The notes under the pieces are model-generated. The model was not told where the DNA came from and made no database searches. It saw only the letters and a program-made list of their open reading frames with translations. From Verrucomicrobiota bacterium (GTDB taxonomy: Bacteria; Chlamydiota; Chlamydiia; Chlamydiales; SM23-39), in NCBI GenBank assembly GCA_028873295.1, contig JAGWKO010000009.1:1-34550 (forward strand): a DNA stretch of 34,550 bases, written 5' to 3'. Shown here in pieces: positions 4,464 to 24,917 of this stretch (its first letter is position 1; the number at the start of each line of letters is the position of its first letter). The translations under genes and the position numbers were made by a program.

Positions 4464-5552
4464 TTACACTTCGTCCCTTTCCAAAACATCCTCTGTCCGA
4501 TGCTGGGTGAGTTTTGCTTCAATTTCAGCAGCAGTTGGTAAGGTGCCCTGAAGTTCTTTCGGCAGTGCATCCATAATGGTTACTGCATATTCTGATACTC
4601 CCATGGGCATCGTACTTCTCTCTAAAGAATACTCAACTTTCAAATCATTTTTAGTACGACAGATAATCATGCCAATAGAAGGGTTATCGGATGGATGCTT
4701 TAGCTGTCGATCCACAGCCGTGAGGTAAAAATTGAGCTTACCAGCATACTCTGGCTTGAAATCTGTCGTTTTTAGCTCCACCACACAAAAACAGCGCAAT
4801 TTAATATGATAGAAGAGCATATCCAAATAGTAGTCATCTCCAGCAATTTCCATATGATATTGCCTGCCGATGAAGGCAAAACCCTGCCCTAATTCAAGAA
4901 TGAGCTTTTCCAGGTTATCTACCAGCCCTCTTTCTAGTTCTTGCTCTATGTAATCATCTTCTAAGGTTAAGAAGCTGAAATTGTAAGGGCTTTTTAGAAT
5001 GTCCTTGGCCAGTTGAGAGTGAGGAGCGGGAAGCCTCTCGCGAAAATTTGTGATTGCTTTCCCTTTTCTATCATAGAGATTGGATCGAATTGCTTCCTCT
5101 AAAGCTCTGCCACTCCATCCATTTTTTATCACCTCATGGGCATACCATTCCCTCGTTAATGGGTCTTTTAACTTCTCTAGTAAGAGCATGTTATGCCACC
5201 AAGGCAATTGTGCAAGCAGTGCCTGCACAAATTGAGAATCAGGATAAACCTCTGCAAATTTCCTCATATATTTGAGATTTCTCACAGAAAACCCAGACAC
5301 CCCTGGAAAATCCGAGGTCAAATCTTTAGCCATTCGTTCAATAATCTTGGCACCCCACCCCTCTACAGCTTGTTTATCAAGAATAGATTTACCAATAGAC
5401 CAGTAGAGAAGAACGAGCTCCTTATTCACAGATAGGCTGGCCCTAATCTGTGCCTCCCGAATCCTTCCCTTAATTTCCTCTAAAAACTCCTTGTATCCAA
5501 CAGGAAGAGCATGAGTCGATAGCCTTGAATCCGCAATGGGATGTGTTGTCAT
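4464..5552 (-). CDS. PDDEXK nuclease domain protein, YhcG/DUF1016 family
   Basis: The product of about 362 residues has the two parts of the YhcG family: an N-terminal DUF1016 winged-helix-like domain (about residues 15-160; WSIGKSI, GWGAKIIERMAKDL, FSVRNLKYMRKF) and a C-terminal PDDEXK nuclease-like domain (about 190-340) with DDYYLDMLFYHIKLRCFCVVELKT, where D and the E-x-K of VELK are the expected metal-site residues. Members are found in mobile elements and beside restriction systems and are presumed to cut or bind DNA. The ATG at 5552 is preferred over the in-frame GTG at 5561 because AAGGTGG sits at the right distance before it. It lies at the left end of the integrated element, alone on its transcript; it may be cargo. 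Confidence 0.88.
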   Translation of the reverse strand: MTTHPIADSRLSTHALPVGYKEFLEEIKGRIREAQIRASLSVNKELVLLYWSIGKSILDKQAVEGWGAKIIERMAKDLTSDFPGVSGFSVRNLKYMRKFAEVYPDSQFVQALLAQLPWWHNMLLLEKLKDPLTREWYAHEVIKNGWSGRALEEAIRSNLYDRKGKAITNFRERLPAPHSQLAKDILKSPYNFSFLTLEDDYIEQELERGLVDNLEKLILELGQGFAFIGRQYHMEIAGDDYYLDMLFYHIKLRCFCVVELKTTDFKPEYAGKLNFYLTAVDRQLKHPSDNPSIGMIICRTKNDLKVEYSLERSTMPMGVSEYAVTIMDALPKELQGTLPTAAEIEAKLTQHRTEDVLERDEV

Positions 5553-5687
5553 AATATCCACCTTGATAGGAAGGAAATTTTTTCACTTTTGCCTGGTGAA
5601 AGTCAATGATTTTTCCATATTTTTTGCGTATCTTAAAAGGCATTGCCGACGGTCAGACTTATATGCACCCCATGACGCACGCGCATA

Positions 5688-6020
5688 TTAGGGAAGAAAT
5701 TCTCGCCTTCTTGCCCAATAAGCAAGCATCCCACGATGTGCGGCTTCTCTGCTTTTATCTTTGCCTTCTTGTGTTTTTGCTCCCGTTGACAAGCCTCCAT
5801 GCATTCGGCAACGTCCATTAATCGGTTCACCTGTTTTAGAATTCACCACGGCCTGGGCTTTGCAGGCACGACCCTTTCGGCTTCGGCACTTAGCACCACA
5901 TAAAGGCCGATTCTTTTTCCATAGACTTTCGCTTTTCCAAAGAGCCGCATACATCTGAGCTTTTATGTGATTGTCATAACTCCATGGCTCCCAAGGTTTA
6001 TACTGCCATGATCTAGCCAT
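5688..6020 (-). CDS. HGGxSTG domain phage-type small protein
   Basis: The 110-residue basic product carries CGAKCRSRKGRACKAQAV followed by CRMHGGLSTGAKT (about residues 40-82), the hallmark of the small HGGxSTG proteins found in prophages and integrated elements. The four Cys and one His could hold a zinc ion. The ATG has a GAGGGG ribosome site. It lies 30 nt downstream of the MITE-broken gene and on the same strand, so both probably belong to the element's transcript. The biochemical role of the family is not known to me. An arginine-rich C-terminus (YWARRREFLP) hints at nucleic acid binding. Confidence 0.75.
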   Translation of the reverse strand: MARSWQYKPWEPWSYDNHIKAQMYAALWKSESLWKKNRPLCGAKCRSRKGRACKAQAVVNSKTGEPINGRCRMHGGLSTGAKTQEGKDKSREAAHRGMLAYWARRREFLP

Positions 6021-6050: not shown

Positions 6051-6431
6051 TTACCACCAATAATGCCCCGCTTCTCTTGCCATCGTTTTGAATTCTTCAT
6101 CTTGCTCTCTGTGTTTCCTCATCGCTTTAATTGCTCTCATTTTTGCTTTATCATTAGACCTCTTGCGCAACTTGCTTTGCTTGAAAAAATTGATCATTTT
6201 TGAACGCATTTCTTGGCAAATTTTGAGAGCATATGCGTACATACGGTCGAAAAATTTGCCAAGAAATGCGACAAAAAGGGCAATTTTAGCAAGCGAATGA
6301 AGTTACGCAAGAGGTCTATTGCCTTTTTCTTTGGCTGCAAGCCACCGCCTAACATAATCCATATACGTACGTGCTCTTTGATTTTTGAGCTCTTCAACCT
6401 TCTCAAAATCATAAAAATCATACTTGTCCAT
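6051..6431 (-). pseudogene. Small element gene (71 aa when intact) interrupted by a MITE
   Basis: The start ATG at 6431 has GGAGG exactly 5 nt upstream. The frame reads MDKYDFYDFEKVEELKNQR to residue 38, then runs into the MITE and meets a stop there. On the far side the frame NDKAKMRAIKAM to GHYWW and stop continues. Removing the 162-bp element and one copy of its 3-bp target duplication leaves 216 nt, i.e. 71 codons plus stop, with no shift. The rebuilt protein is charged, mostly helical and basic in its second half; I do not recognise a family. Two shorter open frames seen here (6303-6491 and 6051-6242) are the halves, each extended artificially by MITE sequence. Confidence 0.75.
6156..6317. 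mobile_element. 162-bp MITE with IS5-like terminal repeats and 3-bp target duplication
   Basis: Both ends start AGACCTCTTGCG(C/T)AACTT, an 18-bp terminal inverted repeat with one mismatch, and the arms stay similar inward, with a perfect 20-bp pair beginning CGCATTTCTTGG at about 6205-6224 and its complement near 6252-6271. The whole thing folds as one long imperfect hairpin and encodes nothing. ATT occurs directly on both sides (6153-6155 and 6318-6320) as a target-site duplication. The ends resemble those of some IS5-family elements, so a resident IS5-like transposase probably moves it; none is in this window. The insertion splits a small gene. Confidence 0.85.
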
Positions 6432-6499
6432 ACCGTCCTCCAATTTTATGCACCAGGGCTGCGATGCTGTTTCCATATTTTCTCTATTCAAATCCTCTC

Positions 6500-6570
6500 G
6501 CTAAAGTTGCTAAACTGCTAAAGCTTCATTGGCTTTAGGTGCAAATCCTTAGCAGATTAGCAGGGTTAGC
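6500..6570. repeat. Iteron-like cluster of GCTAA motifs in an inverted arrangement
   Basis: Bases 6500-6523 hold three GCTAA copies at 8-9 base spacing, and 6547-6570 hold three more in opposite orientation; the two 24-base arms match at 19 positions when one is inverted. Between them is a perfect 7-bp inverted repeat (CTAAAGC at 6518-6524, GCTTTAG at 6532-6538). The right arm overlaps the stop codon of the primase gene. Regular short motifs beside a replication gene suggest a binding array for a replication protein or a replication origin; a structured terminator is the alternative. Confidence 0.6.
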
Positions 6571-8905
6571 TGACCTCCATGTTTTGTGGAGGTTTGATCG
6601 CCCATGCCTCTTTGTTCTTTTTATCATTGATAACGAGATTTGGAGTGGGGATGACCCACCCATGGCTTGCGAGGATGGACATGATCGTTCGAGCGCGGGC
6701 GGCATTCCTGATACCAAGAGAGAGGGGGCCATATTGGTAAACCATGCTCAGACCAACCTGTGTATGGTTCTCTTTCCAAAACCATTTTAGCAAAGAAGCT
6801 GCGCACACGAGGTCTGGATTGATCGAGACAAATCCATGAATGCGCAATCTCTCTGAAAGGTAGTATTGGATAAGAATGATCGCCCTTTGGATGTACTTCG
6901 CGCTAATTTCCCGTACGGCAGGATTTTCAATCAGTACCAGTGAGCCACTAAGTCGTAAAACGTGTTCGGGTGCCTTGCTAGCGAAACGGCGAATTGGATG
7001 ACGTGGGTTGCCTTCTGCCAGTTCCTCTTCGTTTTTGTTATGAAAAGCGATCCAAATCTTTTTGGCATCGTGGCTTAACGAAAGGGAAATAGGTGAAATC
7101 TCGTTCTTTGGAGAAAGGGGTGAGCTTCCCATCGCATTCGAGTCTAATAGACGATTTATCGCATCGTTGAATCGTTTAATAGCGGGATCGGTGGAGAGGT
7201 CTTCTTCGACATAGGTTCGATTTCCAGCCATAGATTGAGGAAACACGATCAGACAGCGAGGTAAGAACCCCTGTAAATCAAAGATGGGGTTACTTAGGAG
7301 TTGGCTGAGAACAACTTCTTGCATCATCAAGTGTAGAGAAAGCCTTCTCCCATAAAGGAGCATGTCACCATCGCCCGCCCTCATCCGCGAAATTTCTTTG
7401 CCATCCCAAAGAGACGACAACCCAGCCAGTGTTTTTAATAGGTTATCGCGATCCATGGCATGCCCTCCAAAGAATCTTCCACCCTCATCGCTAAATAGAC
7501 CGATACTGGGTTGACCATCCGCAGAGAAGTATTTGACGATACCCTCGTAGGTGGGTTCTTCAGCAAGAACTAAGGGACGCAGGGGAGGTAAAGGGAGTGG
7601 TTCGGAAAAAGTCGAAGCCGAAGAAGGATTTTTGATCCATTCTTTCTTCCTCGCTTCCCAGGCTTCCTTTTCAATCTGGAATTTTGGATATTCTGTTCGA
7701 TAGCAATCAGCTAACATTTTCTGCCAGGAGAATATCGCCTTTAAAGCTACTTTGTCCGTTGCGCTCTTTCGATCACCCGACTCTGCGACAGTGAGGTAGA
7801 ACTCTGAAAGAGGAATCTCTCGACCGTCGATAATAATATTTGCATGAGTCTGAGTTGCTAGTGAGGTTGCCGCAAGAACGCTTTGGGCACATATGCTGTC
7901 TGGCGCCTTGATGACTCTATGCATGGCTTGTGCAGCAGGTCCAAGAATAGGACCAAGTGCATCCATAGGAAAAGGTTGGGCTGCTTCAATTTGGCGATAG
8001 AGGGGAATGGGGTCCATTGAACAATGGATATCTACTTCTAGAAAAGAGGCCAGATCATAAATGGTTTTCAGTTCGCAATGCTTATGGAAACACTTGAATC
8101 CATGAGTTGAATAGCCATTTGTATTTGGTTCGTAATATTTTGTGCCTGTGTCTTGCTGAGAATGAAGCTTTCCCCACGGGCATTGGATGCTCCAACATCC
8201 CTGCGGATGTGATTGTTTTTGAATCAGCATTCCTCGATGTTCGAGCGCTTCAAGAACAGGATTGTTGATTACCGATTTATGTGAGGAAATAGGCGGTATT
8301 GGTTGGGAAGAAATAGTGATTTCAAAGGCATCCAGAAATTGTCGTGCAGAGAAGGGTTGTTCTCCGCTTTCTTTGATGATTTTGGTGAGAAAGGAATCTT
8401 GTTTTTGGTGGAGGAAGCCTGGAAGGCGCATAACGCGCGGTAAATCATGAACTTTGGGATCGGCTTGGTAGCGAGTGATTAACTGTTTTTGGATCAAAGA
8501 AAAATGTTCTCGATTGATTCCCTCGACGATCCAGTATGCATGATAACGGTCAGGGCTCGATTCGATGATGATATGCGGAGATAAGGGTGCACTTAAAATT
8601 GGCCCCAATGGGCTACCATCGAGATCGACGAAAAGAGCCCTCACTCCAACGATGTTTTCTGTTTTCCGTCCTTTCCCATCTGTTTGATTGATTGTGACGA
8701 AAATGCCAGCCCCCTGTTCTTGAAGTTGCATAAACTGATCCACGAATTGATCGAACGTCCCGCAGAGTACTTGTGGTATTACTGACGATCCAGATTTTTT
8801 CCGATCGTCAAAGATTTGGAAGGCAAAAATAGATTCTTCATCTTGTGAAAGATGGCTTAAGAATCTTTTTGCCATTGTGATATCTTGTGAGGTATAATGA
8901 TTCAT
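6566..8905 (-). CDS. RepB-type primase domain plus DUF3987 protein
   Basis: The 779-residue protein has two parts. The N-terminal part (about 1-200) resembles the RepB/archaeo-eukaryotic primase family: FVDLDG at residues 92-97 supplies the D-x-D metal site, DRYHAYW at 119-125 and DLPRVMRLPGF follow. The C-terminal part (about 290-770) resembles DUF3987, a replication-linked P-loop-like domain, with ESGDRKS as a degenerate Walker A and LFSDEGG as Walker B. Such proteins are common in phage satellites, plasmids and prophages and probably prime or help unwind the element's own DNA. AGGA precedes the ATG. It lies between an excisionase-like gene and the GCTAA repeat array, which supports a replication role. 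Confidence 0.82.
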   Translation of the reverse strand: MNHYTSQDITMAKRFLSHLSQDEESIFAFQIFDDRKKSGSSVIPQVLCGTFDQFVDQFMQLQEQGAGIFVTINQTDGKGRKTENIVGVRALFVDLDGSPLGPILSAPLSPHIIIESSPDRYHAYWIVEGINREHFSLIQKQLITRYQADPKVHDLPRVMRLPGFLHQKQDSFLTKIIKESGEQPFSARQFLDAFEITISSQPIPPISSHKSVINNPVLEALEHRGMLIQKQSHPQGCWSIQCPWGKLHSQQDTGTKYYEPNTNGYSTHGFKCFHKHCELKTIYDLASFLEVDIHCSMDPIPLYRQIEAAQPFPMDALGPILGPAAQAMHRVIKAPDSICAQSVLAATSLATQTHANIIIDGREIPLSEFYLTVAESGDRKSATDKVALKAIFSWQKMLADCYRTEYPKFQIEKEAWEARKKEWIKNPSSASTFSEPLPLPPLRPLVLAEEPTYEGIVKYFSADGQPSIGLFSDEGGRFFGGHAMDRDNLLKTLAGLSSLWDGKEISRMRAGDGDMLLYGRRLSLHLMMQEVVLSQLLSNPIFDLQGFLPRCLIVFPQSMAGNRTYVEEDLSTDPAIKRFNDAINRLLDSNAMGSSPLSPKNEISPISLSLSHDAKKIWIAFHNKNEEELAEGNPRHPIRRFASKAPEHVLRLSGSLVLIENPAVREISAKYIQRAIILIQYYLSERLRIHGFVSINPDLVCAASLLKWFWKENHTQVGLSMVYQYGPLSLGIRNAARARTIMSILASHGWVIPTPNLVINDKKNKEAWAIKPPQNMEVS

Positions 8906-9321: not shown

Positions 9322-10758
9322 TTAAGATTTTGGTGGAAGATTAGAGGATTTCTCAACGAGCTGACGCTTGAGTTCTTGATGCGAGATGGGGTCATGATAG
9401 ATTGGAAGAGGATTTTTCCGCTGCTCCCGCAGATGTTTTGGAAGCATTCTTACATTCTTATGAGGGTGAGGGAAGAGAAGGAATGCTTCGGGTAAAGCAG
9501 GAATAGTCCCTGGAGGAAGGATTTTTTCAGAGGCTCGCCTGAATCGATCTGCGAGATTGTCTGCATCCAGATTAGGAAACAGGTTTTGTGGCTTTTTCAA
9601 AGGCTGATCTCCGATGTATTCCTTCAGTAAAATAGCTACTCCTTCGGAGTGTTCTATTTCTTCGTCATCTATCAGGAACCTATTTTCAATAACATTCGCT
9701 GTTGTCAATTCTAAAAGCCGTTTGATGGAATAGGAGCGAGTGCCGTTTTGCGAAATATAGGCCATGACCCAAAGTAGCAGAACGATTTCTCCTTCGATCT
9801 CGCGGCCGAAGATGTCTGCAAGAAATTCATCGGCAAAATGAAGGATAAACTTTCCAAATGTGATTCGATCGATTGCATGGCCCGATTTCCATCGAGAAGT
9901 AGATGAGTGTTGTTTAGGTTGTTCAATTGAGAGAAGTTCTTGTAGGAGAGCTTCTTGCTTGTCCATACTCCATGCGACTCCCGAAAAAATCAGTCTTCGG
10001 AGCTTGATTTTCCATAGTCTCTGAAAGTCCATGAAATGTCGCTTCTTGCCAGCAGTAATCGAATGGGATACTTGGGTGTAGGCTTCAGCAACTGAGGTAT
10101 TTTCTTTAGGAGCAAACTCTAGTGTTTCTAGTGTTCTACTCCTCATCTTTGAATCCTGCTTGAGATATTCCTTTATCGTTTGCAGGAAGAGCTTGTGTGA
10201 TCCTTGGTGGAGATTTCGTATTACTGGTTCTCGTTCTTTCCCATATTCATGAACAGCGCATAATTGATTGGTCAAGGTATTGGCTTTATTGTCTTTTTCA
10301 TACCAGTCTATCCATTCGGGCATCTCAGCTTTGGAGGCACAGTAGAGCAGCGCTTCTAACTTTCCTTCTTCGAGCTTTCTAAGATTCTCCTCTGGAAGGA
10401 CAATTTTAACGCCCCAAGGAATATGCCAAATCACATTTGAAACTCCTGGCGGAAAGAAGCAGACTCGAGAACGTGGATAAAACGCAGGGGTTAAAACCAT
10501 GCCAATGAAGGGAGCTGATTTGGCTGCCTCGCGCATCTTTTCATTCGGAGAAAAAATGCTCAATGCATATAAGTGAGTACGCATCATTGTTGCCAGTGCT
10601 TTTTCCGTTATGAGTGGCCTGCCAAGGATGAGATGCGTTTCATAGAAGTGGAATTGAAGAACATTGGATACTTTTGTCACTTTTAGGTGAAAGTCATCTA
10701 AAGCATCTAAGAGGGATTTGATCCCTCTTGCAAGTTTTTGGTGTTTAGTGAGAGCCAT
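9322..10758 (-). CDS. Unrecognised 478-aa protein of the integrated element
   Basis: The frame opens with three ATGs in a row overlapping the end of the integrase gene. AGGAG lies 6 nt before the third ATG (10758), so that one is chosen. The product has no signal peptide and no membrane helix. It is rich in charged residues, with a predicted alpha/beta first half (WHIPWGVKIVLPEENLRKLEEG, PEWIDWYEKD) and a helical second half (LADIFGREIEGEIVLLLWVMAYIS, SVKRLLELTT-like). I see no nuclease, helicase or HTH motif. Translational coupling to the integrase suggests a role in integration control, replication or defence of the element, but this is a guess. Confidence 0.75.
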   Translation of the reverse strand: MALTKHQKLARGIKSLLDALDDFHLKVTKVSNVLQFHFYETHLILGRPLITEKALATMMRTHLYALSIFSPNEKMREAAKSAPFIGMVLTPAFYPRSRVCFFPPGVSNVIWHIPWGVKIVLPEENLRKLEEGKLEALLYCASKAEMPEWIDWYEKDNKANTLTNQLCAVHEYGKEREPVIRNLHQGSHKLFLQTIKEYLKQDSKMRSRTLETLEFAPKENTSVAEAYTQVSHSITAGKKRHFMDFQRLWKIKLRRLIFSGVAWSMDKQEALLQELLSIEQPKQHSSTSRWKSGHAIDRITFGKFILHFADEFLADIFGREIEGEIVLLLWVMAYISQNGTRSYSIKRLLELTTANVIENRFLIDDEEIEHSEGVAILLKEYIGDQPLKKPQNLFPNLDADNLADRFRRASEKILPPGTIPALPEAFLLFPHPHKNVRMLPKHLREQRKNPLPIYHDPISHQELKRQLVEKSSNLPPKS

Positions 10759-11866
10759 CATCATCTCCTGAGTCTGAATTAGTCGCGATGATTGCGCTCA
10801 AATTAGTTGTGCTGACCAATTTTTCATACACCTTTGTCGTCAATTGCTGTACGCTGGCCGCATCTGGATGACAATATCTAAGTAATTGAGACAGAGTGCG
10901 ATGTCCTGTGGCGGCGGACAATTGTATGTTAGAACTTCCTGATACGGAAGCTGTTGTCGCGAAACAATGTCTCAAATCATGCACGCGGAAGTCCTCAATT
11001 TTTCCGTCTTTTAAAGCTTTTTCCCAGGGCTTGCGCAGAGTTAGTTGGCCGAAGCGAGTTTTGCTGGCAAAAACCAAGAGTTTTTCTGGATTTCTTTTAG
11101 AGAATAGCTCTTTGAGCATCTCCAACACATCTCCGACTATGGCCAATACGCGAGGACGTCCGTTTTTGGTGCTTTTGAGATGAATCATGCCATTTTCAAG
11201 GTCCACTGAATTCCACTGCAGGCCAAGGAGCTCGCCGCTTCTTGCTCCTGTTGTCAGTGCCAAGATCACAAAAGGGAGGAGCAGCTTGTTGGAGCTTTTT
11301 GCACATGCCGCCAGCAAACGAGAGCACTCATCAGGAGAAAGAGTTCGGTTTCTACCTTCTGCTTCCTTAAGCTTTTTAACGCGGGACATGGGATTTGATG
11401 AAATCCATTCGCATTCTTTCACTCCATGGCTTAGGACAGCTGAAAGAGAAGCAAGGTAGCGGTTGACAGTAGCCTCAGTGCGTTTTTTGCCTTTTGGTAG
11501 AACCTCATCCAGGAGCTCTCTTCGATGTTTTGAGATCAAGTCTGAAGAAACATGTTTGAGAGTGAATTTCCCCAGTTTCAGTTTCCACCAGTTGAGGTGG
11601 CGGAGAACATCTTCTGCGCTTTTGATAGAGGGAAGAATATCTTGAATATAGCGGTCGATGAGTTCAGCTAAAGTGTGCTTTTGCCTGGACTTTTCAGGGA
11701 AGTATAGACCTTGTCTTCGCTTTGCCTCTTCTTGAATTGCCCAGTCTTTAGCTTCCTGATTTGTTGGAAAAGTTTTATATTGGATTGGAAGCCCGTCGTC
11801 AGGACGGATCATGACGCGGTAGCTGGTAGCACCGTTTTTCTTTTTTCTTTTTTGTATTGTTGCCAT
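10745..11866 (-). CDS. Tyrosine recombinase / phage integrase
   Basis: The 373-residue protein has the standard order: an N-terminal arm-binding segment (1-60), a SAM-like core-binding domain (about 65-170) and a catalytic domain (about 175-350). Catalytic residues visible are the Arg of TGARSGELL, Lys of STKNGRPR, the HDLRH box, the GH of TGHRTLSQLL and the Tyr of RYCHP. GGAG at 8 nt supports the ATG at 11866. It transcribes away from the tRNA gene that begins 165 bases upstream, the usual position for an integrase that inserts into the 3' end of a tRNA. It should insert and, with the small HTH protein, excise the element. Confidence 0.93.
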   Translation of the reverse strand: MATIQKRKKKNGATSYRVMIRPDDGLPIQYKTFPTNQEAKDWAIQEEAKRRQGLYFPEKSRQKHTLAELIDRYIQDILPSIKSAEDVLRHLNWWKLKLGKFTLKHVSSDLISKHRRELLDEVLPKGKKRTEATVNRYLASLSAVLSHGVKECEWISSNPMSRVKKLKEAEGRNRTLSPDECSRLLAACAKSSNKLLLPFVILALTTGARSGELLGLQWNSVDLENGMIHLKSTKNGRPRVLAIVGDVLEMLKELFSKRNPEKLLVFASKTRFGQLTLRKPWEKALKDGKIEDFRVHDLRHCFATTASVSGSSNIQLSAATGHRTLSQLLRYCHPDAASVQQLTTKVYEKLVSTTNLSAIIATNSDSGDDDGSH

Positions 11867-12030: not shown

Positions 12031-12103
12031 TGGGGCAACCTGGACTTGAACCAGGGACCGACGGGTTATGAGTCCGCTGCTCTAACCGCTGAGCTATTGC
12101 CCC
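12031..12103 (-). tRNA. tRNA with CAU anticodon, probably tRNA-Ile2 (lysidine type), else tRNA-Met
   Basis: The 73-base sequence folds as a cloverleaf: acceptor GGGGCAA/TTGCCCC, D stem GCTC/GAGC, T stem CCTGG/CCAGG, discriminator A, no encoded CCA. The anticodon is CAT in CTCATAA. The D-loop (AGCGGTTA) and T-arm resemble bacterial tRNA-Ile2, in which C34 is changed to lysidine; elongator Met is the alternative. In the anticodon stem one pair is A-C (positions 31-39) and the outermost is G-U. The tRNA is the likely attachment site of the element to its left. Confidence 0.9.
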
Positions 12104-24893: not shown

Positions 24894-24917
24894 AGACCTC
24901 TTGCATAACTGAGGTCT
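24894..24917. mobile_element. Possible 24-bp remnant of the MITE family
   Basis: AGACCTCTTGCATAACT matches the MITE terminal repeat of 6156 at 15 of 17 bases, and seven bases of the opposite end (GAGGTCT) follow directly. AAT flanks both sides (24891-24893, 24918-24920). It reads as an internally deleted copy. Its end contributes two bases of the cydB stop TAG (24918-24916). A simple hairpin of unrelated origin remains possible. Confidence 0.5.

Follow-up and report, generated by a model that had tools for sequence, protein, structure and literature searches.

The question raised by this locus is how a small gene of a chlamydia-like bacterium came to lie in two pieces on either side of a long palindrome. 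The window, a stretch of 34,550 nucleotides of contig JAGWKO010000009.1 (assembly GCA_028873295.1), had been the subject of a preliminary description made from the letters alone, according to which a 162-bp MITE with an ATT target duplication splits the gene. We found the element and its ATT copies as claimed, and consider it very probable (roughly 93%) that a 162-bp non-autonomous hairpin transposon, moved in trans by an ISL2-like transposase of the IS5 family, interrupted a 71-codon gene. The features concerned are the following.

6156..6317, + strand: 162-bp palindromic non-autonomous transposon (MITE); covariance model match of 174.9 bits on the + strand and 115.6 bits on the - strand
6156..6173, + strand: left terminal inverted repeat AGACCTCTTGCGCAACTT, by end-sequence comparison
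6300..6317, - strand: right terminal inverted repeat AGACCTCTTGCGTAACTT, matching the left one at 17/18 positions, by end-sequence comparison
6153..6155, no strand: left copy of the target-site duplication ATT, from the sequence and the 3-bp duplications found family-wide
6318..6320, no strand: right copy of the target-site duplication ATT, on the same grounds
6321..6431, - strand: 5' portion of the split 71-codon gene, beginning at 6431; intact homologue at L060:1450-1665 of a related genome (G021), 87% identical
6051..6152, - strand: 3' portion of the split gene; 162 + 3 bp equal 55 codons, which keeps it in frame with the 5' portion
6437..6441, - strand: ribosome-binding site GGAGG of the interrupted gene, from the sequence
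5688..6020, - strand: next gene, 110 aa; neighbour also present in G021, 73% identical

The element reads AGACCTCTTGCGCAACTT...AAGTTACGCAAGAGGTCT, and its 18-bp terminal repeats do differ at a single base, as had been stated. Pairing extends well beyond these short ends, the hairpin taking in the whole 162 bp with a folding energy of -85.7 kcal/mol compared to -34.9 +/- 3.7 kcal/mol for shuffled sequences (z = -13.7). No transposase frame is present, and the element thus has the make-up of a MITE: short, non-coding, with terminal inverted repeats and flanked by a target-site duplication. When 165 bp (the element and one ATT) are taken out, the minus strand from 6431 to 6051 reads as 71 codons and a stop (MDKYDFYDFEKVEELKNQRARTYMDYVRRWLAAKEKGNDKAKMRAIKAMRKHREQDEEFKTMAREAGHYWW*), which agrees with the arithmetic of the preliminary description, and the good ribosome site that it noted corresponds to the GGAGG 5 nt upstream of the ATG. 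With the element in place the frame ends in ...KEKGNRPLA*, after 42 codons, at a TAA within the terminal repeat, and the gene would have lost its function through the insertion. The 71-aa protein had no match in Pfam or PHROGs.

The state before insertion is preserved in G021, where one continuous stretch matches both flanks, the left one ending and the right one beginning at the ATT, so that the insertion at 6156-6317 is a real MITE insertion with a matching empty site in a relative. The uninterrupted gene sought in related elements therefore exists: it encodes 71 aa, joins at the same ATT and is followed downstream by the syntenic homologue of the 110-aa neighbour. The upstream primase-like genes of window and G021 showed no homology and hence only a two-gene block is common to both. 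More distant homologues in three further genomes (G014, G015 and G044) are all single frames, and no homologues of the gene halves as separate proteins, which would have spoken against the preliminary description, were found among the relatives. It is accordingly hard to believe that the insertion broke nothing, with the halves as separate small genes or with a functional C-terminal piece of 63 codons (6242-6051) made by re-initiation; in favour of this reading, an ATG within the element lies in frame with the 3' half. As to the surroundings, the primase-like gene of the window (6566-8905) has RepB_primase and DUF3987 domains, and a phage-type integrase gene (10745-11866) adjoins a tRNA gene of the same orientation (12031-12103), an arrangement suggestive of an integrative element that entered at the tRNA. 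A gene with a DUF1016_N / YhcG nuclease domain lies nearby at 4464-5561.

A frame-preserving length also raises the question whether the element is tolerated within proteins. Rickettsia palindromic elements, about 100-150 bp long, are mobile DNA of obligate intracellular bacteria and are well known for inserting in frame, so that the genes stay readable. The chlamydial element resembles them in being palindromic mobile DNA of intracellular bacteria, its 165 bp amount to 55 codons by which a protein could be extended in frame, and 23 of 41 copies have a particular minus-strand frame open, an excess over permutations that preserve the pairing (p=0.007). In the window, however, the host frame meets a stop 4 codons into the element and the host gene is not left readable; many copies of the family measure 161, 163 or 164 bp, and the majority of copies lie outside genes, which they mostly avoid. 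Coding inside the element was considered for the unusually open frame but rejected, as divergence between copies has no codon-position periodicity (p=0.79), and we regard tolerance within proteins as very improbable.

The preliminary description had suggested that further copies of the ends might be found in the genome. Indeed, the 18-bp end has 56 matches at <=2 mismatches in the 1.41-Mb genome compared to 0 for a reversed control pattern, and these matches are therefore not due to chance; many are accompanied by a 3-bp duplication, which is usually AAT or ATT. Only the window copy was found there as a member of the 162-bp subfamily, the other hairpins examined being cousins of 170 bp and shorter derivatives. 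This second family of about 170 bp has similar ends and a different interior (AGGTTCTGTCGATTTTCGGGTTCTTTTGAGCC...), with copies at L039:541-710, L034:1349-1518, L058:692-861 and L040:1783-1953 and shortened derivatives of about 78-130 bp. At 24894-24917 of the window, a 24-bp relic (AGACCTCTTGCATAACTGAGGTCT) lies between AAT and AAT, and the same genome has comparable 24-bp relics, also with duplications, at other places (L021, L025, L048); to judge from its sequence, the relic seems to be what a deletion between two GAGG copies left of a hairpin element, namely one end and part of the other. Yet another variant, a hairpin of 180 bp with similar asymmetric arm motifs, is present in many copies in a related genome (G006, e.g. 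L074:1504-1683).

The IS5-like transposase with the same ends, likewise anticipated, was encountered in related genomes. These contain complete insertion sequences, mostly of 900-955 bp, with ends of the form AGACYTCTTKCRNAAC, 3-bp duplications AAT, ATT or AGT, and two frames that together encode a transposase with HTH_Tnp_4 and DDE_Tnp_4 domains; the window element thus has its ends and target duplication in common with autonomous insertion sequences of the IS5 family. In its own genome, several contigs stop within an insertion sequence present in multiple copies, whose end, AGACCTCTTGCATAACCTCATTTCC, is 25/30 identical to the right end of the window element and is followed by a similar transposase start. 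The draft assembly holds only this start at contig ends and no complete transposase gene of the IS5/ISL2-like kind, and a search of plasmids with the transposase start gave no match. ISCaa2 and ISCaa3 of Amoebophilus asiaticus have been placed in the ISL2 group of the IS5 family, ISCaa3 being 914 bp long with two frames and having relatives that include one in Parachlamydia acanthamoebae (PMC3196728). By their domains, size, split transposase frames and likeness to ISCaa3, the chlamydial insertion sequences resemble this ISL2 group. The window element differs from them in having no transposase, and from the sequences it appears to be a passenger, having nothing but the ends and target duplication in common with them.

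On these grounds we propose that an IS5-family transposase of the ISL2-like group, provided in trans, would recognise the approximately 18-bp AGACYTCTTKCRNAAC ends, the choice of transposase for the window copy being our assumption. DDE transposases generally act by cut-and-paste chemistry. By analogy the element would be excised and joined to a staggered cut in an ATT target (ANT type) at about codon 38 of the 71-codon gene, within what is probably an integrative element of a chlamydia-like bacterium. Gap filling would then produce the 3-bp duplication, and translation would end after 42 codons.

The element belongs to a large and apparently undescribed family spread through environmental chlamydiae, which is the new part of the finding. 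Searched on its own, the 162-bp sequence had matches, many of them full length, in 45 of the 234 genomes of the order, and a covariance model built from 41 copies matched 98 of the 234, the weaker matches including cousin hairpins. At E <= 1e-6 the model gave 133, 103, 66 and 54 matches in four related genomes, numbers that exceed those of distinct copies because a palindrome can match on both strands. A degenerate core pattern compared with 84,980 species genomes had 22 exact matches, all in genomes of the chlamydial order, and no exact core match among viral contigs. Lengths ranged from 161 to 164 bp across the 105 copies examined, of which 85 (33/41 and 52/64) have perfect 3-bp duplications, with AAT or ATT in nearly every case; flanks compared across different copies agreed in 30% and 45% for the 41- and 64-copy sets, respectively. 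Copies within one genome (G116) are up to 100% identical (median 97.5%), and since they are near-identical the family must have moved there recently. After removal of the element from 61 copies with enough flank, 10 lay within an open frame of >=100 codons, most of them near the frame end, where 79% would be expected at random; the 3' ends of neighbouring genes were close (median 36 bp), and 18 copies lay between convergent genes compared to 5 between divergent ones. As family copies mostly avoid open frames, the mid-gene insertion of the window is unusual and fits a dispensable gene.

Across the 41 aligned copies, the 60 pairs of the hairpin are formed in 95.6% of cases (33-52% with partners slid), compensatory changes on both sides occur at 36 of the 60 pairs, 38 copies out of 39 distinct ones have their better fold on the + strand, and G-U outnumbers A-C 108:59 family-wide. 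The near-fixed length, the conserved internal loops and the compensatory changes are why the fold itself might be needed, and we think it possible, if rather unlikely, that the 162-bp hairpin is kept order-wide as a structure, either as RNA or as single-stranded or cruciform DNA. If so, the fold would be needed for transposition by the ISL2 group or would have a regulatory role at 3' ends. Less likely still is that the hairpin is a functional RNA or a regulatory 3'-end element, spread by transposition and kept for the fold of its transcript, with the gene insertion as a by-product. The pairing, the better folded + strand and the G-U excess agree with it, as do the scarcity of copies in open frames and their position near gene 3' ends and between convergent genes; avoidance of genes, however, would equally be left by selection against damage. 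Selection on an RNA strand, suggested by the family-wide G-U excess, gained no support from changes within single genomes, where one-sided changes giving G-U or A-C numbered 34:24 (p=0.24) beside 34 mismatches, and single copies look unconstrained after insertion. Nor did a known RNA emerge, as no Rfam family matched at threshold and the sub-threshold matches were mostly microRNA hairpins, as for any long hairpin. Given the non-significant within-genome bias and the frequent mismatches, mobile lineages seem to stay palindromic while inserted copies decay freely.

Returning to the transposon insertion as the preferred reading, its age can be bounded on one side. The preliminary description called it recent and took the MITE to have been active after the integrative element arrived. 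Comparison of the sequences indicates that the insertion postdates the split from the G021 version, and in that sense it is recent; activity after arrival does not follow, since the window copy is the sole member of its subfamily found in this genome and its nearest relatives, 86% identical, are in another family, so that it may have come in as a passenger with the integrative element. In a tree of copies it had no well-supported sister.

The kind of element is already known, and it is the chlamydial family that is new. Hairpin-folding MITEs of bacteria include the Correia elements of Neisseria, ERIC of enterobacteria and the QMITEs of Coxiella, which are likewise short, AT-rich and non-coding, with terminal inverted repeats, a target duplication and stem-loop transcripts, and lie mostly between genes (PMC10969869). 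The chlamydial element differs from these in sequence and host phylum, and in forming one stem throughout, of about 162 bp across families, with compensatory changes that keep the pairing. No description of the family was found in a literature search whose coverage mostly excluded subscription journals. For a chlamydia-like lineage, the locus records a hairpin MITE insertion together with its empty site, and it offers a natural marker of gene loss in an integrative element. The family moreover numbers several hundred copies, with co-variation of the arms in six or more chlamydial families, and could be used to ask whether the complementarity of the arms is due to selection on structure or to the copying of either arm from its partner.
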